A DNA stretch of 29,377 bases from a virus, in the IMG/VR virus record IMGVR_UViG_3300023049_000551, positions 1-29,377 of that record; one strand, given 5' to 3'. How positions within the stretch are numbered: the stretch's first letter is position 1; every line of letters starts with the position of its first letter. The notes beneath the pieces were generated by a model, which was not told the DNA's origin, searched no databases, and saw nothing but the letters and a program-made list of their open reading frames with translations. Positions 352 to 29,377 of this stretch are shown here, piece after piece. A program made the position numbers and the translations under genes.

Positions 352-2046
352 TTAGGAATATATCCATTTCTTATTACCACAAGACCAGACTCTATAATGT
401 CCCATTTCTTCCATTATCTCATGCTCAAACTTATTCTTATCATAGCCCTGTCTTACAAGTTTATCTTTTCTCCAATTGAAACGATGTTGTCTTATCTTGT
501 TTACTACATACCAATAGCTAGGCTTTGACGTATGTGAATAGTTAAAGTCTAGTTTCTCATACAAATCTCCCTCTGATATCATATTGTCTGAATAAGATTG
601 AACTTCTATGTACTCATAATTATTTAAGAAATACTTAAATAATTTACTAGCACCACCAATCACTGTAGTATGTACCTTATTACAGAATCTTGTCAGCTCC
701 CACATACCTTCTTTATTTTTACCACCTAATGCGAGTCTTAGCTTAGAAAAGGTCATTAATGAACATATCTCATCGCCTAATATAAGTGCTAACCGAACAG
801 ATGATTTACAGTCACCTTGTAAGTGATTATCATCTAGAAATTTCTTGGATTCTAAGTAAGTTATTTCTTTAACATAACATTTTCTAGCACCAATTTTACT
901 TGATTTGTTTAATTTGTTTAAAATAAAAGATTTACATATATCTTTTTTTATATTCCAATCATCTTCCCATATAGTTATTAGTCTTATACCAATATCCTTA
1001 CATTTACTATATTTCTCTAAATGGTAGTTTTTACTTTTAAATTTATCACTATGCCAATACACACCATTAAATTCAAATCCTAAGTTTAACTCAGGTAAAT
1101 AAACATCTATCTCATTAGGATTTATAGCACTTCTATCATTTTGTATTATAGTACCAGTGTAGTTGTCTTTTATAAAATCATATAACTCTAACTCACATAA
1201 TGATGGCTTGCTATCTATCGGATGGCAAATTGTACATATTTTTCTATTATTATTAACTCTCCAATAGAATTGATAAGTTAGTATCTCAAAATGCTCCTCA
1301 CATTCTTTACAATTAAATAATAAGACTGTCTTATCCCCCTTTTTGATGTCTACAAATTCACTATTACTATCATCTGATATGTGAGATTTTATTCTAGACT
1401 TATAGTTTTCATAAAATTTATCAATAGTTTTTTTATGTATATCTTTATTAGACCATGGATGTTCTACACCATATCTATCAAGGGATGTTTTTTTATATGA
1501 TGCTTTGTATGCATCTATATTTTTCTTAAAAGACTCGACTCTTCTTTTTAAGATAACACTGCTTTTATTCGGATTATCAACGCCCCAATTTTTAAGTAAT
1601 GTTTTCTTTGATTTTGCCATTATATCTTTATTACCCATAGGAGAATTGTGACCATACCTCTGGTTGTTAGTCTTTATTGCCTTATCCTTTATTATTTTTG
1701 ACTCCGCTGGTGTTTTAGTCCCCCACTTACTTAAAGACTTTTGTTCTTTTTGTTTAATTATATTAGGATCAGATCCAATGCACTTGTTAGAGCAATAGTT
1801 ATAATAACCAAGAGTCTTATTCTTAAACTTTGTTGGCTTATAGCAGTTAATATTCTTACAAATTGGTAATTTGTTAATGTTATTTATACAAAGATATACT
1901 TTTTGTTTAAATGGTATATTATCAATATCGTTATCAACAGACCATTTCAGTATATATTCTAATTCTTTATGATGGTTTTTTAGCAAATAAGATTCTTTAC
2001 TCATCTTACCAGACTTATCTTCTTTCTTAAATATATTTAAATCCAT
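352..2046 (-). CDS. Vsr-like (EDxHD-type) homing endonuclease with YG-V-x-P repeats
   Basis: 564 residues. The N-terminal third has cysteine pairs that could bind zinc (C63/C68, C85/C89) and then four or so short repeats of the form W/Y-G-V-x-N/H-P about 22-40 residues apart (roughly 108-200), thought to act as DNA-binding modules. A second zinc knuckle follows (C246/C249, C271/C274). The nuclease core spans about 285-365: EIDVYLPELNLGFEFNG, then YWHSD, giving D314, E325 and H332, as in the Vsr/I-Bth0305I family. A C-terminal domain (about 385-510) contains RFCNK and GGASKL motifs shared with the protein at 24297. The gene sits alone between the sheath terminator and the leucine-rich-repeat gene, as expected for a free-standing mobile gene. 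It probably nicks or cuts a nearby site in phages lacking it; the target is unknown. Confidence 0.8.
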   Translation of the reverse strand: MDLNIFKKEDKSGKMSKESYLLKNHHKELEYILKWSVDNDIDNIPFKQKVYLCINNINKLPICKNINCYKPTKFKNKTLGYYNYCSNKCIGSDPNIIKQKEQKSLSKWGTKTPAESKIIKDKAIKTNNQRYGHNSPMGNKDIMAKSKKTLLKNWGVDNPNKSSVILKRRVESFKKNIDAYKASYKKTSLDRYGVEHPWSNKDIHKKTIDKFYENYKSRIKSHISDDSNSEFVDIKKGDKTVLLFNCKECEEHFEILTYQFYWRVNNNRKICTICHPIDSKPSLCELELYDFIKDNYTGTIIQNDRSAINPNEIDVYLPELNLGFEFNGVYWHSDKFKSKNYHLEKYSKCKDIGIRLITIWEDDWNIKKDICKSFILNKLNKSSKIGARKCYVKEITYLESKKFLDDNHLQGDCKSSVRLALILGDEICSLMTFSKLRLALGGKNKEGMWELTRFCNKVHTTVIGGASKLFKYFLNNYEYIEVQSYSDNMISEGDLYEKLDFNYSHTSKPSYWYVVNKIRQHRFNWRKDKLVRQGYDKNKFEHEIMEEMGHYRVWSCGNKKWIYS

Positions 2047-10290: not shown

Positions 10291-11142
10291 ATGAAGGCAC
10301 ATTTTTTTGACATTGATACACTTATTAAGATAGATAATTCAGTATGGTTAGTCTCTAAGAATAAACCTTCGATACCCATCATTAAATTAACTGAATCAGA
10401 ATTCAATTTAATAAAAAAAGGTATCTATAAGAAATATAATTCTATGCTTAATATTGATGATGTTGGATATTGGCTACCAGAAAACCTTTACAACACACTA
10501 AAGATTAAGAGTAAAAGTATGAAGTTCAACATAACTGACCTATCATTCTCCTTACAAGAATTTATGAATACAAGTATTATAGAAAATTTAGACTACACTA
10601 TCTATAAGAAGCATTTTCAGCACCTTAGAAACAAAAACGATGATATATACATAATATGTTCTAAAAAAAGTAAAAGTAGCTACAAAACGATTATAGATAG
10701 CTTAGAGAAGGAATTGGGTGATATGAATCTAGTAGTAAAAGATTATTACTTTCTATCAGAAACATTCTATAATAGAGATAAAGATTATATCTCATATCTA
10801 AAAACAAGACTCTTATTACAACATTTGTTCGGTTATAAAACTGATGGTGAGAAATTTACAGATACAGTTGTTGAGAATTATAACACAGTCCACTTTTATG
10901 ATGAAAATAAAAAATCTATTGATTTGGCTATTAATATAAACGATGTGTTTACCACAATAATGAGTAATACTAGCGATGATATAAAAAATAATATCCATGA
11001 CATTACGAATAGAGTAGATAAATACGTTATGGTTAGGGAGGTAACATATAACCAAAGAAACATCTTTAAACAAAAAGATATTCTAATACATGCTAATAAT
11101 TTAGTGAAAACTTTTGAAACATTTAAGTACTTAAAAATATAA
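10291..11142 (+). CDS. HAD-like phage protein
   Basis: 283 residues. The start MKAHFFDIDTLI has the DxD of HAD motif I (D7, D9). A segment IYIICSKKS at about 118 resembles motif II (strand then Ser), and TVHFYDENKKSIDLA at about 200 resembles the acidic motif IV. The order and spacing fit a HAD phosphatase with a helical cap in the first half, although the match is weak and the second acidic residue is a Glu. Substrate unknown. Its stop codon touches the stop of the opposite-strand gene at 11143 with no gap. Confidence 0.6.
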   Translation: MKAHFFDIDTLIKIDNSVWLVSKNKPSIPIIKLTESEFNLIKKGIYKKYNSMLNIDDVGYWLPENLYNTLKIKSKSMKFNITDLSFSLQEFMNTSIIENLDYTIYKKHFQHLRNKNDDIYIICSKKSKSSYKTIIDSLEKELGDMNLVVKDYYFLSETFYNRDKDYISYLKTRLLLQHLFGYKTDGEKFTDTVVENYNTVHFYDENKKSIDLAININDVFTTIMSNTSDDIKNNIHDITNRVDKYVMVREVTYNQRNIFKQKDILIHANNLVKTFETFKYLKI

Positions 11143-11793
11143 TTACTTCTTTTTACCCTTACTTTCTTTTTTATTATTACTCTCTTTCATCATTGCTCCT
11201 TTTATAAGGTCATTTAGTTTTCTATTATCAACAATATCACCATCACCTTGTGAATCTTTCGCTTTATCAGATTGTGACTCTAAAACCTCTGAATTTTCAA
11301 TATCGTCTAATCCCATATCTGTTCTTAGATTCTTATAGAACTTTTCTAAGTCAGTTCTTTGTGTGGATAGAAATTTAGAGTTTTCCCTAACCTGCACAAT
11401 AGTCTGGTTAACAACTTCGTGCATTCTAGCTGAGCTTTCCCCATTATCAATTTGGCGTAGTTGGTTAAGGAAGTTTTTTCTAGTCATTTTAGCCAAGAAT
11501 ATAGCCTCTGAATATACCATAGCATCTTCCTTCATCTTATTTTTTATATAAGGATGTTGTTTTAGTTTTGGAACATCACTTAGGTATAAGTCTATAAGTG
11601 AACTTAAAACCTCCACTGATTGCTGTGATGATGTGCTTAAATCTGCATCATAATCATACAAGCTTATCTCACCAAGGTCTGGTAAATCTTCTGCTTCTGC
11701 CAAATGTTTTGATATATCAAAATCATTATTCTCCCCTTGTATTTGATCAAATTCGTCTTGTATCCTACTTTTTTCTTTATCTGTTTTAGACAT
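11143..11793 (-). CDS. Probable small terminase subunit (T4 gp16-like)
   Basis: 216 residues, helical, with acidic N-terminal and lysine-rich C-terminal tails. In T4 the small terminase binds DNA and regulates the packaging motor. Two stretches resemble T4 gp16 from memory: an early EDLPDLGEISLYDYD region (compare gp16 near its start) and a central SSARMHEVVNQTIVQVREN helix (compare the gp16 segment SPRHMEVFATLMGQMTTTN). The gene is divergent from terL across a shared AT-rich promoter region, which also fits. Longer than T4 gp16 (164). The call needs a profile search; an unrelated helical protein remains possible. Confidence 0.5.
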   Translation of the reverse strand: MSKTDKEKSRIQDEFDQIQGENNDFDISKHLAEAEDLPDLGEISLYDYDADLSTSSQQSVEVLSSLIDLYLSDVPKLKQHPYIKNKMKEDAMVYSEAIFLAKMTRKNFLNQLRQIDNGESSARMHEVVNQTIVQVRENSKFLSTQRTDLEKFYKNLRTDMGLDDIENSEVLESQSDKAKDSQGDGDIVDNRKLNDLIKGAMMKESNNKKESKGKKK

Positions 11794-11806
11794 AGAGCTG
11801 TTTTTT

Positions 11807-11819
11807 TATAATATATATA
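11807..11819. promoter_or_regulatory. Divergent AT-rich late-promoter-like box
   Basis: TATAATATATATA lies between the divergent small- and large-terminase genes. It is a variant of the TTAATATATA box and reads similarly on both strands, so it could serve both genes. The spacing to the ATGs is 13 and 16 nt. Confidence 0.35.
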
Positions 11820-11835
11820 AAAAAATAAGTCGCTT

Positions 11836-12351
11836 ATGGCAAAGATTAAGAAAGAAAGACAAATGGTATTTAGTAGTGAGAACGTTACCGAGGCTACTGA
11901 TAAGATAAATGATGGTATAGTACTAAAAAGGTTTCAAAATCCTTGGCTTAAAAACGAAATAGGGTTAAGAAGATCAGGTCTTACATTTAAGATGACAAGT
12001 GCCGAACAAGGAGAATACATTAAATGTGCACTAGATATACACCATTTTACCGAAAAATACTGTAAGGTGAAAAGAGAAGATGGTTCTATTGGAGCAATAA
12101 CACTTAGAGACTATCAAGCTGACATATTAGATAATTTTGTTGATAATCGATTCAATATATTAATGGCTAGTAGGCAGGTGGGTAAGTGCTTGACCTTCAA
12201 CACTTTATGCGAAATTAAGAGCAAGGAAATTAGAAAAGAATATAGAATTGGTAAACTATATTACTACATGCTTAAGCAAGAAAGATCACTAACATTATTA
12301 GAAAAAATAAAAATTAAACTATATGATATTTTATTTTTGCTAGAAAAATAA
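11836..12351 (+). CDS. terL: Large terminase N-terminal fragment fused to N-intein
   Basis: 171 residues. Residues 1-117 are the N-terminus of the T4 gp17-type packaging motor, including LRDYQADILD and the ATPase P-loop start ASRQVGK. At residue 118 the P-loop is interrupted by CLTFNTLCEI, a clear intein block A with the essential Cys1. The remaining 54 residues are intein and end in an amphipathic helix (TLLEKIKIKLYDILFLLEK), after which a true stop occurs. The expected Thr of GKT appears only in the next terL ORF (13886), directly after an intein C-terminal HN. Thus the fragment must be joined by protein trans-splicing to give an active ATPase. An AT-rich late-type box lies upstream. Confidence 0.93.
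   Translation: MAKIKKERQMVFSSENVTEATDKINDGIVLKRFQNPWLKNEIGLRRSGLTFKMTSAEQGEYIKCALDIHHFTEKYCKVKREDGSIGAITLRDYQADILDNFVDNRFNILMASRQVGKCLTFNTLCEIKSKEIRKEYRIGKLYYYMLKQERSLTLLEKIKIKLYDILFLLEK
12187..12348 (+). other. Split intein, N-terminal fragment (54 residues)
   Basis: Starts with Cys1 (codon 12187-12189) in block A, CLTFNTLCEI. It has no block B and so is much shorter than a normal N-intein. The split therefore falls between blocks A and B, as in the atypically split AceL-type TerL inteins. The C-terminal helix probably pairs with the N-terminal helix of the partner fragment at 13436. Confidence 0.9.
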
Positions 12352-12421
12352 TTTACCTATTTGATAACAAGCCAACATCTTTTTATATATAAAAGCATTT
12401 AATAATAAAACAGAATAAATT

Positions 12422-13417
12422 ATGATAATAAATGATAATAAAGAAACTGTAACATGTAGAATATGTGGTGAGCAATGTAAAAGAATATATGGTAAACATT
12501 TAAAATTTGCACATAATAATATGACTACTAAAGAATATAAAGAATTGTACGAAGGTGCTCCTATAATGGCATTATCAGATAAGGCTAAGACAACAATTAA
12601 AAGTGGTAAGCATATGAAGACAGAAAAGTATAAAAAAATGTTTGCAGATAAAATAAGAGGCAGAAAAAATCCTAATCACAAAGAAAATACAACTGAATTA
12701 GAAAGAAAATCGAGAAGTCCATTTTCAAAGAACTTTTCAAAATATGAAGGTATAGAGAATATAGAGAAGCATATAAGTATTTTTGCAAAGGAAGCTATTA
12801 AGGATAGAATATCAGATACTACTTTAGAATACTATTTACTGAAAGGTTATGATGAGGAAACATCTAAAAAGATGCTTAGTGAAAGACAAAGTACATTTTC
12901 TCTAAAAAAATGTGTAGAAAAATATGGTGATGTTGGTGGTAAGAAAAGATGGCTAGATAGACAAACACTTTGGCAGAAAAATTTGGCAGAAAATGGTAAT
13001 ATGAAATGTGGCTATTCTGAAATATCACAAGACCTATTTAAAAAGATAAGTAAGATTTATACAGATAATGAACTAAAACGTGTACACTATGCAATAAAAA
13101 ATAAAGAGTTCTTTATATCAGTTAAAGATGTAGGATTTTTCTCATATGACTTCACTGATAGAAAAAGAATGAAAATTATCGAATACAATGGTGATTTATA
13201 CCATGCAAATCCTAAAACTTTCAAAGAGAACGATTACCCACATCCTTTCTATAAAGAAAGTGGGCCTACTGCAAGGGAAATATGGGATAAAGATAATTTA
13301 AAAATAAATATTGCTAAATCAAAAGGATTTGATATTCTAATAATATGGGATACTGAATATAAAAGCAAAAAAGATTTAACTATTAAAAAATGTATAGATT
13401 TTTTAAATAATGTATAG
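12422..13417 (+). CDS. Vsr-like homing endonuclease within the fractured terL gene
   Basis: 331 residues. The N-terminus has a zinc finger of the MucR-like kind (C12-x2-C15, H26, H31). A middle region (about 60-230) is rich in Lys and contains a KYGDVGGKKRW motif. The C-terminal nuclease core has YDFTDRKRMKIIEYNGDLYH (D243, E254, H261), then REIWDKDN and ILIIWDTE, as in Vsr/EDxHD nucleases. The gene has its own start and stop and sits exactly between the two split-intein halves, 70 nt after the first and 18 nt before the second. This is the 'fractured gene' arrangement reported from marine metagenomes. It probably cuts intein-free terL alleles and so spreads the whole cassette. Confidence 0.88.
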   Translation: MIINDNKETVTCRICGEQCKRIYGKHLKFAHNNMTTKEYKELYEGAPIMALSDKAKTTIKSGKHMKTEKYKKMFADKIRGRKNPNHKENTTELERKSRSPFSKNFSKYEGIENIEKHISIFAKEAIKDRISDTTLEYYLLKGYDEETSKKMLSERQSTFSLKKCVEKYGDVGGKKRWLDRQTLWQKNLAENGNMKCGYSEISQDLFKKISKIYTDNELKRVHYAIKNKEFFISVKDVGFFSYDFTDRKRMKIIEYNGDLYHANPKTFKENDYPHPFYKESGPTAREIWDKDNLKINIAKSKGFDILIIWDTEYKSKKDLTIKKCIDFLNNV

Positions 13418-13435
13418 ATAAAAATAATAAAAAAA

Positions 13436-13885
13436 ATGATTACACTTCTTAAAAAAATATTGATTGAGTTGATAGAAAAATCTATTGAGTTGATAGAAAA
13501 ATACCAATATAGAAATGTATCATTGGATGAGGATGATATTTCTAAAAAAATATTAAAATCTATATCTTTAATAGATATTAGAGTAAAGACTGATACTGGA
13601 TATGAGGCAGTATCAGAGATACATTTAACACAACCATTTAATCATTATAATATCAAAACTATTGACGGTCTTAGCTTAACTTGTGCAGATAATCATATAT
13701 TATTTGATGAATATTTTGATGAAGTATTCTGTAAAGAATTAAAAATAGGCGATACTATAAAGACCAAAAATGGCAATAGTATTGTGAAGCATATAAAAAA
13801 GGAAGATTATAAATCATCTATGTTTGATTTATCGGTAGACCATCAGAATCATAGGTTCTACACAAATGGAATACTTTCACACAAT
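13436..13885 (+). other. Split intein, C-terminal fragment (150 residues)
   Basis: Contains block B (LTCADNHILF), block F (MFDLSVDHQNHRFYTNGIL) and block G ending in His-Asn, with extein Thr as the +1 nucleophile at 13886. Being 150 residues it holds most of the intein fold. It starts with an extra amphipathic helix (MITLLKKILIELIEK and so on) that mirrors the last helix of the N fragment. Confidence 0.9.
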
Positions 13886-16783
13886 ACTATATCTGCTTCT
13901 ATATTTATGCTTCATACAATACTATTCAATAATGATAAAAACATTATGATTGTAGCTAACAAGGGAGATACATCAGTTGAGATTGTTGACAAGATAAAAT
14001 CCATTTATTCATTACTACCATTTTTTTTAAAACCTGGTATAAAAACATGGAATCAAAAATCACTAACATTTGACAATGGTTGTCGTATTAAGACCTCTGC
14101 TAGGACAAAGACTCCAGCTATTGGTTTTACTATTGATGTTCTTTATTTAGATGAATTTGCACATATTCCTTCAAACATAATAGAACCATATTATACTGCG
14201 GTTTTTCCAACAGTATCTGCAATAAAAAACTCTAAAATAATAATCACATCTACACCAAATGGTATGAATTTATTTCATAAATTACTTACTAATGCAGAAC
14301 GACCAGCTGGTGACCCACAAAGAAACAACTACACCCCCATGAGGGTTTACTGGTATCAAGTCCCTGGTAGGTTTGTTACATATATAAGGCTTAATGATCA
14401 TAAATTATACGAAAACAAAATAGAAAAGGATGATATTCTTAATCAAGTACATAATAAATGGGGTGCTGATACTAAGGTCGAAATGAGTTGGAGTGTTGAT
14501 TTACAAAAATATGTAATCGAGGTTTATAATAATGATTATTGTCATGATGAGGATGTTGTTGGATTTAATATAAAAACACCCGATGGGAAAGAGATATCTA
14601 TACTAGAGTTAGCAGAACTTACTACATGGAAGGATGAGGCAATAAAAGATATTGGTGGAGAAGATGCTTTTAACCAAGAATACGGTCTTAGATTTGTAAA
14701 TGCTAGTAAATCTTTACTAAGTGAAAATATTATAGACCATTTATTGAATAATAAAATTCTTTATGAGTGGGAGGAGATATATGAATTTGAAGATAAGCTA
14801 AATTTTTCCTATGAAAATTTAAAATGGGTTGATGATTATGATATATACAACCCTATAAAAAGAAAAGAATATAAAATAGTCTTATCAATTGACCTTGCAG
14901 AGGGATTAGGTCAAGATTTTTCTGTTATAAACATATTCAGAATAAGTAATAAAAGTAGAGAGGTCATAGATATACAAAAAGAAAAGTATTCATCAATAAA
15001 GGATTTTTTCAAACTAGAACAAATTGGGATATATCGAAGTAATATAATATCTATTAAACAAATGTCAGAATTGCTTTATATATTAGCTTTTGAATATTTT
15101 AATCCAGATAACCTTAAAATAGTTTTAGAACTTAACAACTATGGAAATACATTACTAGCAGAACTACCTCATGTTTTTGATGGTATTAATGATTATGGTT
15201 CTTCTGTATTTGTTAGATATAAGCACAGAATAGATTCACCAGAAGAAAAGGTAGGACTTAAAGTAACAAGTTTAAAAAATTTACTTATAAAAGACTACCA
15301 ATCTCTAATGCTTAGTAAATCTTTCTCAATAAATAATGAAGACACCATAAGGGAAATAACCACATTTGTAAAACATACAACTAGTTCTGGTAATATAAAA
15401 TATGCAGCAGATAATGGAAACGATGATTGCGTTTTGCCAAACACTCTTATAAAGACTATAAATGGTTATAAAAGAATAAAAGATATCAAATTAGGTGAGT
15501 TGGTGTTAACACATTTAGGAAATTACAAACCAGTAACAAATATATGTAAAAAAGATTTTGATGGTGTTATGCACAGAATCAAATTTAGAGGCCAACCTAG
15601 CTTAGATATAACATATAACCATCCTATATATGTTCCAAAAAATGACTACTCAAAGAAAAATAGAAAGAATTATAATAATTATCTTAAGCGAGAGTGGATT
15701 TTACCAAGTGACATTTCTAATAAATCTAGGTGTGTTGTTATAAAATCACCTCTATATACTGGTGATGTTAATAATATCAAATATCAAGAATTATTTGAAA
15801 GGAATAAATATTCTCCGTCATCTAATTTTAAAATAAAGGAAATAGAACTAGATAATAATTTTGCTAAGTTTTTAGGCTTATTCTTAGCAGATGGTAACAG
15901 TTATAAACCATCTCATAATACTTACCGAATAACTTTAGCCTTTAATGATAAAGATTTAACTCTTATTGATGAAATGAAGGATATAATAAATAACTGGAAT
16001 TTAAAATATCATGTACAGAATAGAAATAATTGCACTACTGTGATATTTTATAATAGATTCTTATGGGAAATATTTTCTAAATGCTATGATGAAGATAAAG
16101 AGAAAATATTCCCCGAAATGCTCTATAACAAACTAGATAAAGAGAAAATGTCCCTAGTCCTAGATTATTGGATAAAGGGAGATGGTTGGCTCTGTGAAAC
16201 ACCTGGTAAGACTAAACATTACATAGGATGTTCAACTAGTTTTCAACTAGCATTGACTATGAGAGATATATCTATATCATTAGACAAACATGCAGTAATA
16301 TCCTATAATAAAAGACATAGATATGGTAAGCCTACGAAAAGCCAATATTGGGTATCTATTTATGAAGATAGTTTAGAAAGGTCATGTATGAGAAAGATTT
16401 CTGATTTTGAATATTCGTCAGTACTACAAAGAAATGAAAAGTATAATTATACTGGAACAACTTATAATTTAGAAGTAGAGGATGATAATAGTTATGTAGC
16501 AAATGGGATAGTTGTACATAATTGTGTCATGACTATTGTAAATGCTACATCTATATTCGAAAAGAACGAGTTTACAGAGATGATACACGAATGGATGAAC
16601 AAACATGTTGATAAGGAAATAGTTGATTACATAAATGAGTGTATGAAGAAATCTGATTATATAGAAAGTAATGATTACACACACTTTTTAGATGTGAAGA
16701 AAAAAACACTTGGTTCTAGAACTGGTGGTGGATATGGTCAGAGCAAATATAAGTCAAGTAGTGGATATGGAAGACGCAGGTAA
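13436..16783 (+). CDS. terL: C-intein + large terminase body + LAGLIDADG intein
   Basis: 1115 residues in four parts. 1-150: C-terminal half of the split intein, ending GILSHN. 151-664: terminase, starting with the T of the P-loop, with Walker B LYLDE (236-240), the coupling motif TSTPNG (271-276), nuclease motifs SIDLAEG (D486) and VLELNNYG (E565), and NGNDD (663-664). 665-1029: a full intein with LAGLIDADG endonuclease motifs. 1030-1115: the last 86 residues of terminase, ending in a Gly/Ser/Arg-rich tail. The mature protein after both splicing steps would be 717 residues (117+514+86), against about 610 for T4 gp17. It powers DNA packaging into the prohead and cuts the concatemer. Confidence 0.93.
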   Translation: MITLLKKILIELIEKSIELIEKYQYRNVSLDEDDISKKILKSISLIDIRVKTDTGYEAVSEIHLTQPFNHYNIKTIDGLSLTCADNHILFDEYFDEVFCKELKIGDTIKTKNGNSIVKHIKKEDYKSSMFDLSVDHQNHRFYTNGILSHNTISASIFMLHTILFNNDKNIMIVANKGDTSVEIVDKIKSIYSLLPFFLKPGIKTWNQKSLTFDNGCRIKTSARTKTPAIGFTIDVLYLDEFAHIPSNIIEPYYTAVFPTVSAIKNSKIIITSTPNGMNLFHKLLTNAERPAGDPQRNNYTPMRVYWYQVPGRFVTYIRLNDHKLYENKIEKDDILNQVHNKWGADTKVEMSWSVDLQKYVIEVYNNDYCHDEDVVGFNIKTPDGKEISILELAELTTWKDEAIKDIGGEDAFNQEYGLRFVNASKSLLSENIIDHLLNNKILYEWEEIYEFEDKLNFSYENLKWVDDYDIYNPIKRKEYKIVLSIDLAEGLGQDFSVINIFRISNKSREVIDIQKEKYSSIKDFFKLEQIGIYRSNIISIKQMSELLYILAFEYFNPDNLKIVLELNNYGNTLLAELPHVFDGINDYGSSVFVRYKHRIDSPEEKVGLKVTSLKNLLIKDYQSLMLSKSFSINNEDTIREITTFVKHTTSSGNIKYAADNGNDDCVLPNTLIKTINGYKRIKDIKLGELVLTHLGNYKPVTNICKKDFDGVMHRIKFRGQPSLDITYNHPIYVPKNDYSKKNRKNYNNYLKREWILPSDISNKSRCVVIKSPLYTGDVNNIKYQELFERNKYSPSSNFKIKEIELDNNFAKFLGLFLADGNSYKPSHNTYRITLAFNDKDLTLIDEMKDIINNWNLKYHVQNRNNCTTVIFYNRFLWEIFSKCYDEDKEKIFPEMLYNKLDKEKMSLVLDYWIKGDGWLCETPGKTKHYIGCSTSFQLALTMRDISISLDKHAVISYNKRHRYGKPTKSQYWVSIYEDSLERSCMRKISDFEYSSVLQRNEKYNYTGTTYNLEVEDDNSYVANGIVVHNCVMTIVNATSIFEKNEFTEMIHEWMNKHVDKEIVDYINECMKKSDYIESNDYTHFLDVKKKTLGSRTGGGYGQSKYKSSSGYGRRR
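13463..13502 (+). repeat. 21-bp tandem repeat adding one heptad
   Basis: ATTGAGTTGATAGAAAAAT occurs twice (13463-13481 and 13484-13502), with a period of 21 bp. It encodes IELIEKS then IELIEKY, that is, exactly one seven-residue heptad duplicated in the dimerising helix of the split-intein C fragment. Confidence 0.92.
15428..16522 (+). other. LAGLIDADG intein in the terminase nuclease motif
   Basis: 365 residues. Block A is CVLPNTLIKT, block B includes LDITYNHPIYV, and the ending is NSYVANGIVVHN followed by extein Cys. Two LAGLIDADG helices are visible, FLGLFLADGN and LVLDYWIKGDG. Splicing and homing residues all appear intact. The insertion is immediately after the catalytic Asp-Asp of the RNase H-like nuclease, so splicing restores NDD|CVM. 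Confidence 0.93.
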
Positions 16784-16787
16784 TCAG

Positions 16788-17066
16788 CTAGTTTTCCTCC
16801 ATAGTAACAAGCAGTCCATTATTTGACAATTTTTCTTTCATACTAGAAATAGTCTCATAATCACCATACTTAACATCACAAATACCTTTAAAGTGCACAA
16901 TGTGTGCACATTGATTTGCTTGTTCTTTTTCATGTCCACATATATTTATCAAACACTTAATAACATGTTCAAATGAATTATGGGAGTCATTGTGTAAATC
17001 TAGTCTATATGGACTAGATAATATTTCTTCTACTTCTGTCTTAGTTTCTTCTTTTATCTTTGTCAT
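16788..17066 (-). CDS. clpS: ClpS-like Clp protease adaptor
   Basis: 92 residues covering a whole ClpS core: YRLDLHNDSHNSFEHVI (the N-D pair that binds the N-terminal amino group), a CGHEKEQANQCAHIVHFKG helix-turn with the conserved His, then CDVKYGDYE and a final LLVTMEEN strand. ClpS delivers N-degron proteins to ClpAP/ClpCP; a phage copy could steer host proteolysis or shield phage proteins. It is the second gene of an operon with the HAD gene (5-nt gap), driven by a host-type promoter at 17599-17629, so it is probably early. It is convergent with terL, 4 nt apart, with no visible terminator. Confidence 0.85.
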   Translation of the reverse strand: MTKIKEETKTEVEEILSSPYRLDLHNDSHNSFEHVIKCLINICGHEKEQANQCAHIVHFKGICDVKYGDYETISSMKEKLSNNGLLVTMEEN

Positions 17067-17071
17067 AGCTA

Positions 17072-17590
17072 TTAATTAAATGTTTTTATAGTTTTGTTAA
17101 TTGAGTCGATTATTGTAATCTTTATCTTTTGTGTTTCTCCCCACCTAGCGAATTTTTCTAAATGCTCAGCCCTATCATCATACATAGTGAAGTGTTCACA
17201 TTTAGTATTTTCTATTTGATTTTCAAATAGCTTTACTTTAAATGTAAATGTATCGTGACCACTACATAAATGAACCTCATCAAAGGACATATTGTGGCTT
17301 CTAATAATTTCTTCAACACGGGATCTCATTCCCATTACTCTATTCTGTCTCCCAGTAGCCACAATGACGTAAGAATCTGGTCTAGCAACTGCCCTTAGAT
17401 ATTCTTCATAAATCCAATCAACCTTTGGTATATCAAATACACTAGTATCTAAAGAGTCAGGCTTACCCCACCAACCTCGGTGTCCCCAATCCTCACCAGT
17501 CTTTTCTTTCCATATAACTTTACCTTCTTTTGGCTCTGGTGTTAAGCACAGTGTTTTATCAAAATCAAAACAGTATAATTCTCTAATCAT
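17072..17590 (-). CDS. HAD phosphatase of the RNA-repair 'Swiss army knife' type
   Basis: 172 residues from the ATG at 17590. The longer start at 17629 lies upstream of the promoter -7 box and is rejected. Motifs: LYCFDFDKTL (D9, D11), a Trp-rich cap segment (WKEKTGEDWGHRGWWGKP), IVATGR (motif II) and TMYDDRAEHLEKF (motif IV). This pattern matches the HAD_SAK group, linked by sequence analysis to nucleic-acid or RNA end repair. It precedes clpS in a two-gene early operon. With the kinase/phosphatase at 26063 it could serve RNA repair, but the substrate is not known. Confidence 0.8.
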   Translation of the reverse strand: MIRELYCFDFDKTLCLTPEPKEGKVIWKEKTGEDWGHRGWWGKPDSLDTSVFDIPKVDWIYEEYLRAVARPDSYVIVATGRQNRVMGMRSRVEEIIRSHNMSFDEVHLCSGHDTFTFKVKLFENQIENTKCEHFTMYDDRAEHLEKFARWGETQKIKITIIDSINKTIKTFN

Positions 17591-24296: not shown

Positions 24297-26033
24297 ATGA
24301 TAATAAAAAAGACCATAACAATAAAGACCAAAGGGTGTAGAAAGATAAAATATTATAAATCACTTGGGTATGAAGTTCATAAAGATGAAATAGAAATAAA
24401 AATAGAACATATATCCAAGGGATCAAGACTCGATGTGGATGTATCTTGTGATTTTTGTAACAAGGAAGTCAATATACAGATAAAAGAGTATTTTAGAAAT
24501 ATATCAAATGGTAGTAAGTATGCCTGTTGTATGAAGTGTGGATCTCTAAAGGCTAAAGAAACTAGTATAAAAAAATACGGTGTAGACCACCCTATGATGC
24601 TAGAAGAAATACAAGAAAGCGTTAAAAAGACCAATATAGAAAAATATGGTGTTGAATACTTACAACAATCAAAAAAAATAAGAAAAAAGTCATCCCAAAC
24701 ATTAATTGATAAGTATGGAGTAGACCATATATCTAAATCAAAGCATTTTAAAAATAAATTTAAAGAAACTTGTCTTAAAAATCATGGTGTCGAGTATCCA
24801 ATGATGTCAAAAAAAGTAAGAGATAAATCAAGGACTACAAACATAAGAAAATATGGTGTTGAAAATCCTTCAATGTTAGAAAGTGTTAGACAAAGTGTTA
24901 ATAAGACTAATAAGGATAGGTATGGTCAATCTAACTATTTACTATCTGATGATTTTAAAACAAAAAATAAAAAGACTATGTCTAATAAATGGGATTCTGA
25001 TAATATTATGAAATCTGATATATTCAGACCAGGAAAGTTCTCAATATCTAGTGATGATAATTACATTAAGTATATTGATAATGGTATCTCTTTGATGAGG
25101 TGTTACAAAGAACATGATTATAAAATACATATAGATAATTATTTAAAAAGGTCAAGGTCTAACCTACCACTTTGTACTACATGTTATCCCATAAGCAGTT
25201 CACAATCAATAAAAGAGAAAGAACTACTAGAATATATAACTTCTAAATATAATGGTTCTATAATAAAATCTTATAGAGATGGTTTAGAAATAGATGTTTA
25301 CTTACCAGAACTTAATATAGGTTTTGAATTTAATGGATTATACTGGCATTCAGAAGAATATAAAGAAAAAAACTATCACTATGATAAGAGTAAATATTTT
25401 CTTGATAAAGGAATCAGAATAATACATATATGGGAAGATGATTGGGTAAATAATATAGAAATACTAAAATCACAAATATGTAACTGGTTGAGTATAAGTA
25501 ATAAAATAGGTGCTAGAAAATGTGTTATAAAAGAAATAAAAAATACGAAGATTGTAACTAATTTCTTAGACAAAAATCATATACAGGGAAGAGCAAAATC
25601 CTCACTAAAATTGGGACTGTACCACAATGAAGAATTGGTTAGTATAATGACCTTTGATCATTTAGAAGGTAGAAAAAGAATGATGAGTGATGAGTGGAAT
25701 CTTAACAGATTCTGTAATAAAAAGAATACTTCTGTAATTGGAGGTGCTAGTAAATTATTGAGTTATTTCGTTAAAAATCACAGTCCCAAAAGATTAATAA
25801 GTTATGCTGATAGCGACTGGTCTGATGGTGGTCTATATAAAAACTTAGGATTTGTGAAAATTAAAGAAACAAAACCAGACTATAAATATATCGTTGGTTG
25901 TAAGAGAATACATAAGTCAAATTATAAAAAATCTAATTTAAATACAAATCTAACAGAAAGTAAATTTATGAAAGATAATAACTATAAGAAGATATGGGAC
26001 TGTGGTAAAATAAAATTTGAGAAAAAATATTAA
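24297..26033 (+). CDS. Vsr-like (EDxHD-type) homing endonuclease with YG-V repeats
   Basis: 578 residues. The N-terminus includes CRKIKYYKSLGYEV (shared with the protein at 28395) and a zinc knuckle (C51/C54, C78/C81). Six or seven short K-Y-G-V-x-H/N-P repeats cover about 92-235. The nuclease core spans about 305-395: EIDVYLPELNIGFEFNG, YWHSE and WEDDW, giving D333, E344 and H351. A C-terminal domain with RFCNKK and IGGASKLLSY matches that of the protein at 352. The gene lies between two identical terminators, so it appears to have been inserted as a cassette between the 428-residue gene and the kinase gene. Target site unknown. Confidence 0.82.
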   Translation: MIIKKTITIKTKGCRKIKYYKSLGYEVHKDEIEIKIEHISKGSRLDVDVSCDFCNKEVNIQIKEYFRNISNGSKYACCMKCGSLKAKETSIKKYGVDHPMMLEEIQESVKKTNIEKYGVEYLQQSKKIRKKSSQTLIDKYGVDHISKSKHFKNKFKETCLKNHGVEYPMMSKKVRDKSRTTNIRKYGVENPSMLESVRQSVNKTNKDRYGQSNYLLSDDFKTKNKKTMSNKWDSDNIMKSDIFRPGKFSISSDDNYIKYIDNGISLMRCYKEHDYKIHIDNYLKRSRSNLPLCTTCYPISSSQSIKEKELLEYITSKYNGSIIKSYRDGLEIDVYLPELNIGFEFNGLYWHSEEYKEKNYHYDKSKYFLDKGIRIIHIWEDDWVNNIEILKSQICNWLSISNKIGARKCVIKEIKNTKIVTNFLDKNHIQGRAKSSLKLGLYHNEELVSIMTFDHLEGRKRMMSDEWNLNRFCNKKNTSVIGGASKLLSYFVKNHSPKRLISYADSDWSDGGLYKNLGFVKIKETKPDYKYIVGCKRIHKSNYKKSNLNTNLTESKFMKDNNYKKIWDCGKIKFEKKY

Positions 26034-27059: not shown

Positions 27060-27971
27060 ATGAAAAAAGCAAACTTTTATGAAGAAGTTACAGAACTAAT
27101 TAATTATAATTTTTCATATTTCGAATATACTAACAATACAACTAAATCCATTATAGTCTGCAATAAACACAAAACTAAATTTTCTAGAAACTTAAAACAA
27201 ATAAGAAAAGGCAACCTGTGTCCATTATGCTCTACAAAAGTAAAGACAACAGATAAATTCATACAAGAGTCTAAGAGAGTATGGGGAGAACATAAATGGG
27301 ATTATTCAAAAACTATGTACAAGTGTTCTAGGAGTAAATTAACAATAGGTTGCCGAAGTCATGGTACTTATTTTCAAATTTATCCTAAACAACATCTAAA
27401 CCAAGAAAAAGATTGTGATGTATGTAAAAGGGCAAAACTACAAGCTGACTTTATAGATAGTTCTAAAAGTATATGGGGAGAACATAAATGGGATTATTCT
27501 AATGTTAATTATACAAATAACAAAACACATGTTGATATAATATGTGTTAAGCATGGCATTTTTAGCCAAAGACCTGATAATCACTTATATAACATGAATG
27601 GATGTCCAGACTGTAATAAGTCAAAGGGGGAGAGTATGATAAGTATTTTTCTAGACAAAAATAAAATATTATATGAATTTCAAAAATCCTTTAATGGTTG
27701 TGTAAATAAGCTTCCTTTAAGATTTGATTTCTATATACCAAAATACAATATTTGTATTGAATATAATGGTGAACAACACTATAAGCCAGTAAAATACTTT
27801 GGTGGTGTTAAAAATTTGGAATATAATAGAAAAAAAGATAAGATAAAACAAGAATTTTGTGCAAATAATAGAATAAATCTATTAATAATCAAATATGACG
27901 AATCTGTTAATGAAAAGTTAAAACTTATTGATAAAAATATATATAATATATATAAAAATAATAGAACATAA
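27060..27971 (+). CDS. Zinc-module homing endonuclease
   Basis: 303 residues. Three zinc modules are seen: an N-terminal one (C34, H37, C54, C57), and two related ones each with a WGEHKWDYS motif followed by C-x-x-H-G and C-x-x-C (about 71-122 and 133-185). The nuclease core follows: KGESMISIFLD (E191), RFDFYIPKYNICIEYNGEQHY (D223, E234, H240), then YFGG and LLIIKYDE. The gene ends directly at the gp55 ATG, with no gap, and carries its own late box. The two central modules share an identical 28-nt stretch, pointing to a recent internal duplication. Confidence 0.8.
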   Translation: MKKANFYEEVTELINYNFSYFEYTNNTTKSIIVCNKHKTKFSRNLKQIRKGNLCPLCSTKVKTTDKFIQESKRVWGEHKWDYSKTMYKCSRSKLTIGCRSHGTYFQIYPKQHLNQEKDCDVCKRAKLQADFIDSSKSIWGEHKWDYSNVNYTNNKTHVDIICVKHGIFSQRPDNHLYNMNGCPDCNKSKGESMISIFLDKNKILYEFQKSFNGCVNKLPLRFDFYIPKYNICIEYNGEQHYKPVKYFGGVKNLEYNRKKDKIKQEFCANNRINLLIIKYDESVNEKLKLIDKNIYNIYKNNRT

Positions 27972-28394: not shown

Positions 28395-29377
28395 ATGATA
28401 AAAGAAAAAAAGATAAAGATAAAGGGTCACTCTAGGAATATAAAATATTACAAATCATTTGGATATGATATTAGTGTTGGTAAATATATAGATATAAGCG
28501 TAGAACACTTGTCTAAGGGAACTTCATCTAAGATTACATGTATATGCCAAAACTGTAACAAAGAAGTCTCTAATGGCTTTAAAGACTACTGGAATTACAC
28601 GAATGGTCTAAGTGGGATATATTATTGCAACTCTTGTAAAAAGATAAAATCTGAAAAGACTTCTCTTAAAAAGTATGGTGTTAAAAATCCAATGCAATCA
28701 GAAGAAGTTAAACAAACTCTTAAGAAAAGCCTTCTAGACAAATATAATGTTTCCCACTATTCTAAGACGAAAGAATGGAAGGATAAGTTCGTACAAACAT
28801 CTTTAGATAGGTATGGTGTTACTAATCCTTCTAAGTCTATTGACGTTATTAACAAAATAAAAGAAACTAATCAAAAGAACTTAGGTGTAGACTGGTCTAT
28901 GCAAAGTAAATCGACTATATCCAAATCAAGAAAATCATTTAATGATAAATATGGTGTAGATTGGATATCCAAATCAGACTACTATAAAGACAAAATAAAA
29001 GAAACTTCTATAGAGAAATGGGGTGTTAGTAATTATTCAAAAACTATAGAATATAAAGAGAAGGTAAAATCTACAAATTTTTCAAACTGGGGTGGGCATC
29101 CTTCTAAGAATGAAAATTTTAAGTTAAAGGCAAAGAATACTAAACAGAGAAAAACATTTAAAAGATATGCAGAACTAATATCAGGTAAGTATATACTTAA
29201 TTCATATAAAAATGAGACATTCTCATTAATGCATAAAGAATGTAATAATACCTTTGATATAAACAAAGGTTTATTAAGAGCAAGGTTTAACTCATGTAAG
29301 ATGATATGTACACAATGCAACCCAGTTGGTGTATTATATTCTAACCTCGAAACACAAGTTGGTTCTTTTATAGAGAG
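28395..29377 (+). CDS. Vsr-like homing endonuclease, N-terminal part (runs off the window)
   Basis: 327 codons are open to the right edge with no stop. It begins MIKEKKIKIKGHSRNIKYYK and is a close relative of the protein at 24297: the same N-terminus, a zinc knuckle (C-x2-C pairs at about 54-57 and 78-81) and eight or so repeats of the form Y/W-G-V-x-N/D-P/W. After the repeats the second zinc knuckle ends CTQCNPVG, followed by NLETQVGSFIE, the start of the nuclease domain. The catalytic core itself is outside the window. It lies 57 nt after gp55. Confidence 0.8.
   Translation, partial: MIKEKKIKIKGHSRNIKYYKSFGYDISVGKYIDISVEHLSKGTSSKITCICQNCNKEVSNGFKDYWNYTNGLSGIYYCNSCKKIKSEKTSLKKYGVKNPMQSEEVKQTLKKSLLDKYNVSHYSKTKEWKDKFVQTSLDRYGVTNPSKSIDVINKIKETNQKNLGVDWSMQSKSTISKSRKSFNDKYGVDWISKSDYYKDKIKETSIEKWGVSNYSKTIEYKEKVKSTNFSNWGGHPSKNENFKLKAKNTKQRKTFKRYAELISGKYILNSYKNETFSLMHKECNNTFDINKGLLRARFNSCKMICTQCNPVGVLYSNLETQVGSFIE

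Follow-up and report, generated by a model that had tools for sequence, protein, structure and literature searches.

A split intein at the Walker A motif of a phage terminase gene, with a homing-type nuclease gene between its halves

Fractured genes, as described by Dassa et al. (2009, NAR 37:2560; cited in PMC10448857), pair split inteins with a separately encoded nuclease of the EDxHD/Vsr-like family. Natural atypical split inteins also occur in the large terminase subunit (TerL) of phages, namely AceL-TerL and GOS-TerL, with an N-terminal intein part (IntN) of 25-37 amino acids (aa) and Cys at position +1 (PMC11766414); the mycobacteriophage intein TerL1-a is a cis intein in the TerL P-loop (PMC5050341), and a split PolB has been described in a jumbo phage (PMC6892783). 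Here, we describe the terL gene of the IMG/VR virus record IMGVR_UViG_3300023049_000551, of which the whole stretch from position 1 to 29,377 was analysed (29,377 nucleotides, referred to as the window). A mobile split-intein cassette very probably interrupts this gene at the Lys-Thr bond of the Walker A motif; its two halves would be joined by trans-splicing, and it would be spread by homing through the nuclease encoded between them. Contigs carrying related loci are designated by L numbers.

Organization of the divided terL gene

As read from the open reading frames (ORFs) of the window and their translations, terL is broken inside Walker A (ASRQVGK/T, where the slash marks the junction, as in all motifs below) into two ORFs, both of which match the terminase large subunit in PHROGs. 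The features of the locus, including the C-terminal intein part (IntC), are as follows.

11836-12351 (+), N-half ORF: 171 aa, reading ..NILMASRQVGK, then CLTFNTLCEI.. and a stop
11836..12186 (+), TerL N-extein: 117 aa, the C-terminal end of which is Walker A (..ASRQVGK)
12187..12348 (+), IntN: 54 aa, consisting of block A (CLTFNTLCEI, starting with Cys1) and the C-terminal helix LTLLEKIKIKLYDILFLLEK; stop at 12349-12351
12422..13417 (+), free-standing, homing-endonuclease-like nuclease gene: 331 aa, with a Ros/MucR-type zinc finger at residues 7-45 and a Vsr/EDxHD-type catalytic domain at about 220-325
13436-16783 (+), C-half ORF: 1115 aa, the intein part of which ends FYTNGILSHN/TISAS
13436..13885 (+), IntC: 150 aa, with a helical arm at the N-terminus and blocks B (LTCADNHI), F (MFDLSVDHQNHRFYTN) and G (GILSHN)
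13886..15427 (+), TerL C-extein part 1: 514 aa, beginning with Thr+1 of Walker A and holding the remaining ATPase and most of the nuclease domain
15428..16522 (+), second intein: 365 aa, contiguous, CVLPNTLIKT...VVHN/C, with LAGLIDADG-type motifs
16523..16780 (+), TerL C-extein part 2: 86 aa, followed by a stop codon (16781-16783)

A near-identical layout is found in seven other IMG/VR contigs and homologous layouts in dozens more; chance, an assembly artefact or a frameshift as the cause of the split is ruled out, as the layout recurs in contigs of independent origin and a further ORF lies between the halves. The N-extein and C-extein are contiguous in the intein-free relatives L012, L014 and L015, and empty sites fused exactly at K/T are seen in L012, in the 634-kb phage LR745206 and in the 642-kb phage LR756502. 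The insertion is thus located between the Walker A Lys and Thr, at the position of P-loop TerL inteins (site a).

The first-pass annotation of this DNA had placed block A and a stop after ASRQVGK, and blocks B, F and G ending in HN/T at the start of the next terL ORF. All of these blocks are present, but the stop does not come straight after block A: ..NILMASRQVGK is followed by CLTFNTLCEIKSKEIRKEYRIGKLYYYMLKQERSLTLLEKIKIKLYDILFLLEK and only then by the stop, so that 44 more residues, including the conserved helix LTLLEKIKIKLYDILFLLEK, follow CLTFNTLCEI, and the C-half opens with a conserved arm of ~40 residues (..LIELIEKYQYRNVSLDEDDISKKI) upstream of block B. Cys1 stands straight after the N-extein as the block A nucleophile and is invariant in 16 aligned rows. 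Block B contains a TxxH-like motif (LTCADNHI), blocks F and G lead to His-Asn followed by Thr+1 (MFDLSVDHQNHRFYTNGILSHN/T), and residues A84, D85, H87, H149 and N150 of IntC are invariant in a 15-row alignment. When a profile built from 15 IntC sequences was searched against the PDB, the best matches were VidaL (6vgv, E=7e-11), gp41-1 (6qaz, 2e-10) and CatC (6dsl, 6e-9).

The fold was approached through the cis intein of L155 rather than through the window's own halves. Its AlphaFold2 (AF2) model, for which IntN tails were misplaced in some rows of the underlying alignment, has a predicted local distance difference test score (pLDDT) of 93 and a predicted template-modelling score (pTM) of 0.64, and comprises intein strands and a long helix (residues 21-70). 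In a Foldseek search with this model all top matches were inteins, the first three distinct PDB matches being VidaL, gp41-1 and Cat, and a HINT fold is accordingly predicted for this cis relative. The helix falls where the split forms are broken, so that the break lies between blocks A and B, inside a helical insertion; this helical region is retained in the cis relatives in IMG/VR (L155, L156-158 and L172). Klebsiella phage 0507-KN2-1 (Ackermannviridae) has a cis mini-intein at the same K/T bond, and one of the same type in Salmonella phage Marshall carries an intein annotation. The split intein at GK/T is therefore upheld by intein-profile homology, the AF2 and Foldseek results for the cis relative, the exact empty sites and selection on both halves, as described below.

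The C-half also contains a complete contiguous LAGLIDADG-type intein that was overlooked in the first-pass annotation. It interrupts the TerL nuclease domain at the GNDD/C motif, matches Pfam Intein_splicing (E=1.5e-15), and is absent from L011 and L039, the flanks of which are near-identical. L044 carries a counterpart with 52% identity, and L140 has part of one. The same annotation lacked the previously described TerL split inteins (AceL-TerL and GOS-TerL; PMC11766414) and the nuclease-free, re-fused and dispersed relatives.

The intervening nuclease and movement of the cassette

The complete nuclease gene that had been noted between the terL halves is present as the 331-aa ORF 12422-13417, and its description as a Vsr-like zinc-finger nuclease holds at the level of motifs, with weaker support at the level of the fold. 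The N-terminal Ros/MucR-like zinc finger is indicated by a Pfam ROS_MUCR match (E 1.6e-4, under the family cut-off) and by a profile match to Ros (2jsp). Among 22 nuclease sequences D243, E254 and G257 are invariant and E229, H261 and D291 are mostly kept (E229 in 18/22, D243 in 22/22, H261 in 21/22 and D291 in 16/22, with E in 5), such that the E-D-x-H-D catalytic residues appear to be present in a Vsr-like core. The columns of E229, D243, H261 and D291 are those that we take, with the profile alignment as a guide, to match the Vsr residues. A single-sequence phmmer search against the PDB gave nothing useful, and I-Bth0305I (3r3p, E=0.09), Vsr (1odg/1vsr/1cw0, E about 0.5) and Ros surfaced only in the profile search; with a model of the nuclease, Foldseek returned Vsr with a probability of 0.99 and I-Bth0305I with 0.98 (E 0.06-0.12). 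Pfam gave the sub-threshold ROS_MUCR match alone for the window nuclease, with DUF559/MTES_1575 matches in relatives only. Further relatives of the nuclease are encoded in Aeromonas phages and in Campylobacter phage CP21, where the gene lies amid fragments of the DNA-polymerase gene.

Movement of the cassette is seen most directly in the pair L010 and L110. Their exteins are saturated at silent sites (proportion of silent differences, pS, 0.75-0.86), whereas the 1.6-kb cassette is ~99-100% identical, with no silent or replacement difference in IntN (silent divergence, dS, of 0) and dS of 0.01 in the nuclease and 0.08 in IntC. The identity rises to ~1.0 at the left junction and drops at the right one, each time within ~30 bp of the junction concerned; a transferred tract that ends so close to the insertion site on both sides, between saturated flanks, is the pattern expected of homing. 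The window and the near-identical phage L011 have exteins of 99-100% aa identity, whereas IntN is 29% and IntC 52% identical, and the nuclease gene is a mosaic with a first half about 95% and a second half about 60% identical. It is thus well supported by these comparisons that IntN, the nuclease gene and IntC moved recently between phages as one unit. Direct repeats were looked for around the cassette, with nothing convincing found. Between the window and L011, the silent divergence of the C-extein segment 13886-15427 is only 0.02, compared with 0.13 in the N-extein; the segment joining the two intein sites may thus have been co-converted.

Relatives of the locus were surveyed in 83 contigs, some of them near-duplicates, with classes assigned by matches to hidden Markov models. 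The nuclease lies between the halves in 47/83; 15/83 are split without nuclease, 6/83 have other inserts, 5/83 are cis, 1/83 has a nuclease fragment and 9/83 are cut off or undetermined. The other inserts include an antisense gene of 574-576 aa (DUF7487/homing-endonuclease-like) in L034, L118 and L137; the terL halves of L044 are separated by several consecutive phage genes in antisense orientation. A recognisable nuclease C-terminus remains in six of the 11 nuclease-free gaps tested (L123, L130, L136, L141, L161 and L168), with 0-1 of 200 shuffles equally good. A quick intein tree of 55 rows requires no fewer than 15 changes in nuclease presence and has the cis form at two points, both of them next to a split form with the nuclease, with support of 96 and 99 in the Shimodaira-Hasegawa-like approximate likelihood-ratio test. 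We read this unrooted tree as showing that the nuclease was lost repeatedly and that the halves were re-fused twice, the direction of re-fusion being the presumed one. The halves can also be far apart: in the 735-kb phage LR756501 they are separated by about 12.4 kb and some 19 ORFs, and in the cultured Salicola phage SCTP-2 (L088) the N-half is about 173 kb from the C-half. The SCTP-2 C-half ORF (PBI_SCTP2_267) ends after ..SISLLY in the IntN-like sequence CLDGETTVKLRDKESGE..; TerL of this phage may be encoded in three pieces, and a search of SCTP-2 for the third did not find it. A scan of genome contigs gave one distant match and no host. Taken together, the relatives appear to show the stages of a homing cycle: empty, nuclease-loaded, with a decayed nuclease, re-fused in cis and with dispersed halves.

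The frequent loss of the nuclease among relatives would also agree with a cassette that is no longer mobile, the recent movement of which reflects ordinary phage recombination rather than nuclease-driven homing. The ~30-bp limits of the L010/L110 tract and its saturated flanks speak against this explanation, which we consider unlikely although it survives better than the others discussed below. The first-pass proposal that the nuclease spreads the split gene is consequently strongly supported as far as movement of the cassette is concerned, cutting by this nuclease being presumed.

Selection and the proposed trans-splicing

In dozens of IMG/VR contigs both intein halves are conserved, and the ratio of replacement to silent divergence (dN/dS) indicates purifying selection on them. 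The ratio for IntN and IntC is about 0.02-0.2 in most informative pairs (0.02 for IntN against L004) and rises to about 0.1-0.4 among L115, L118 and L120, which lack the nuclease; values of 0.4-0.6 for the window against L011 and for L110 against L034 compare alleles of different descent with silent sites near saturation. The exteins have values of about 0.03-0.1. Such values in exteins and intein halves, together with the retention of the arrangement across dozens of diverse contigs, make it very improbable that the split terL is a decaying pseudogene while a second intact terL serves the virus. A second TerL-like ORF does exist in the 735-kb and 462-kb phages, and the window record covers just 29 kb, the remainder of the virus being unseen; in the 634-kb and 642-kb relatives, however, the sole match to the TerL N-half is their intact terL.

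In the proposed mechanism, the N-half protein (the start of the ATPase and IntN) and the C-half protein (IntC and the remaining TerL) would be translated separately. IntN with block A would dock into IntC with blocks B, F and G, aided by the helical arms at the break, and Cys1, Asn150 and Thr+1 would perform trans-splicing to restore GKT; the second cis intein at GNDD/C would also have to splice out. The nuclease would recognise the intact P-loop codons in the intein-free or differently loaded terL of co-infecting phages and cut there, and repair would copy the entire ~1.7-kb cassette into the cut gene. The earlier suggestion that packaging depends on two separately translated proteins agrees with the two ORFs and with relatives in which the halves flank antisense genes or lie kilobases apart, the splicing itself being the presumed step.

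Several observations weigh against this mechanism. The E-values that link the nuclease to Vsr (0.06-0.5) fall short of conventional significance, and the cassette could have been transferred through other recombination routes. The helical arms form one helix of ~50 residues in the AF2 model of L155, so that their helper role is conjectural. The C-terminal residues of the intein are atypical in the 735-kb phage (L016, ..NLN/T), in the 462-kb phage (L018, ..SSQ/T) and in L141 (..SSN/T), and a few relatives with such altered termini may be poor splicers. These altered residues, and arms that could hold the halves together, would also fit two subunits that associate non-covalently without splicing. 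As the break lies between the Walker A Lys and Thr, however, the intein would then remain in the ATP site, and nearly every member has kept Cys1 and Asn; we give this explanation very little credence. Finally, phage terL can be split by introns that are accompanied by free-standing nucleases (ICP1, PMC10448857). An explanation by a nuclease-encoding intron of group I or II, with intein-like ends arising by read-through, is nevertheless scarcely credible here, with Rfam giving no match down to E=1 for 11000-17500, both ends aligning as intein protein with catalytic residues kept and low dN/dS, contiguous cis inteins in relatives, and other relatives with their halves around antisense genes or kilobases apart.

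Elsewhere in the window, a small protein encoded at 16788-17066 (-) weakly matches an ATP-dependent protease family in PHROGs (phrog_27368) and adjoins terL in several relatives. Four more homing-endonuclease-like genes are located at 352-2046 (-), 24297-26033 (+), 27060-27971 (+) and 28395-29375 (+) (PHROGs 3339/559/12131).

Comparison with known systems

Closely related loci at every stage of the homing cycle are available for one essential gene that is fractured, with direct evidence that a transfer with precise junctions took place recently and that re-fusion occurred, such that the origin and persistence of split inteins become testable within one family. This family should yield numerous new pairs of split-intein halves divided at an unusual site, and SCTP-2 provides a cultured phage with one TerL half far from the other. 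There is an even chance, in our judgement, that a full life cycle within one essential phage gene is represented here, from nuclease-driven spread through decay and re-fusion to permanent dispersal, that some giant phages need two distant loci to assemble their packaging motor and that the helical arms are a class-specific association device. The literature searched, Dassa et al. (2009) and the GOS-TerL paper excluded, contained no report of a split intein at TerL K/T, and its novelty is provisional.

Vibrio phage Va1 has a Cys+1 split TerL intein at ..NFE/C, a different place from the K/T of the window and one that we take to be the AceL/GOS site. In the same phage (L089, 2149-5566), the second ORF also encodes a Vsr-like nuclease domain, fused to IntC in frame and upstream of it.

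As in fractured genes, the host gene of the window is broken inside an intein and a separate, free-standing Vsr-like nuclease gene lies between the halves. Unlike in fractured genes, the host gene is terL at Walker A, the split lies between blocks A and B, and the relatives show nuclease loss, re-fusion and dispersal. AceL, GOS and the consensus Cat intein (PDB 6dsl) likewise represent split TerL inteins with a short IntN and a homologous IntC (CatC, E=6e-9), whereas the window has an IntN of 54 aa, an IntC of 150 aa and Thr+1 at GK/T, and is not a member of the AceL/GOS group. VidaL (PDB 6vgv/6vgw) is the best match in sequence and in fold, with about 28% identity, and no evidence places it at the insertion site of the window. 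The cis P-loop TerL inteins (TerL1-a and, in Ackermannviridae, those of Marshall and 0507-KN2-1) occupy the same K/T bond, which was read directly in 0507-KN2-1, and the Ackermannviridae have a homologous IntC with 34-41% identity; unlike the window intein, they are contiguous mini-inteins in one ORF. I-Bth0305I and Escherichia coli Vsr (PDB 3r3p, 1cw0, 1vsr) appear to have the motif spacing and predicted fold of the catalytic domain in common with the window nuclease, which differs in its additional N-terminal Ros/MucR-like zinc finger and is only weakly similar. In conclusion, fractured genes, split TerL inteins such as AceL and GOS, and P-loop TerL inteins are already known, and what appears to be new here is the P-loop site combined with a split between blocks A and B with helical arms.

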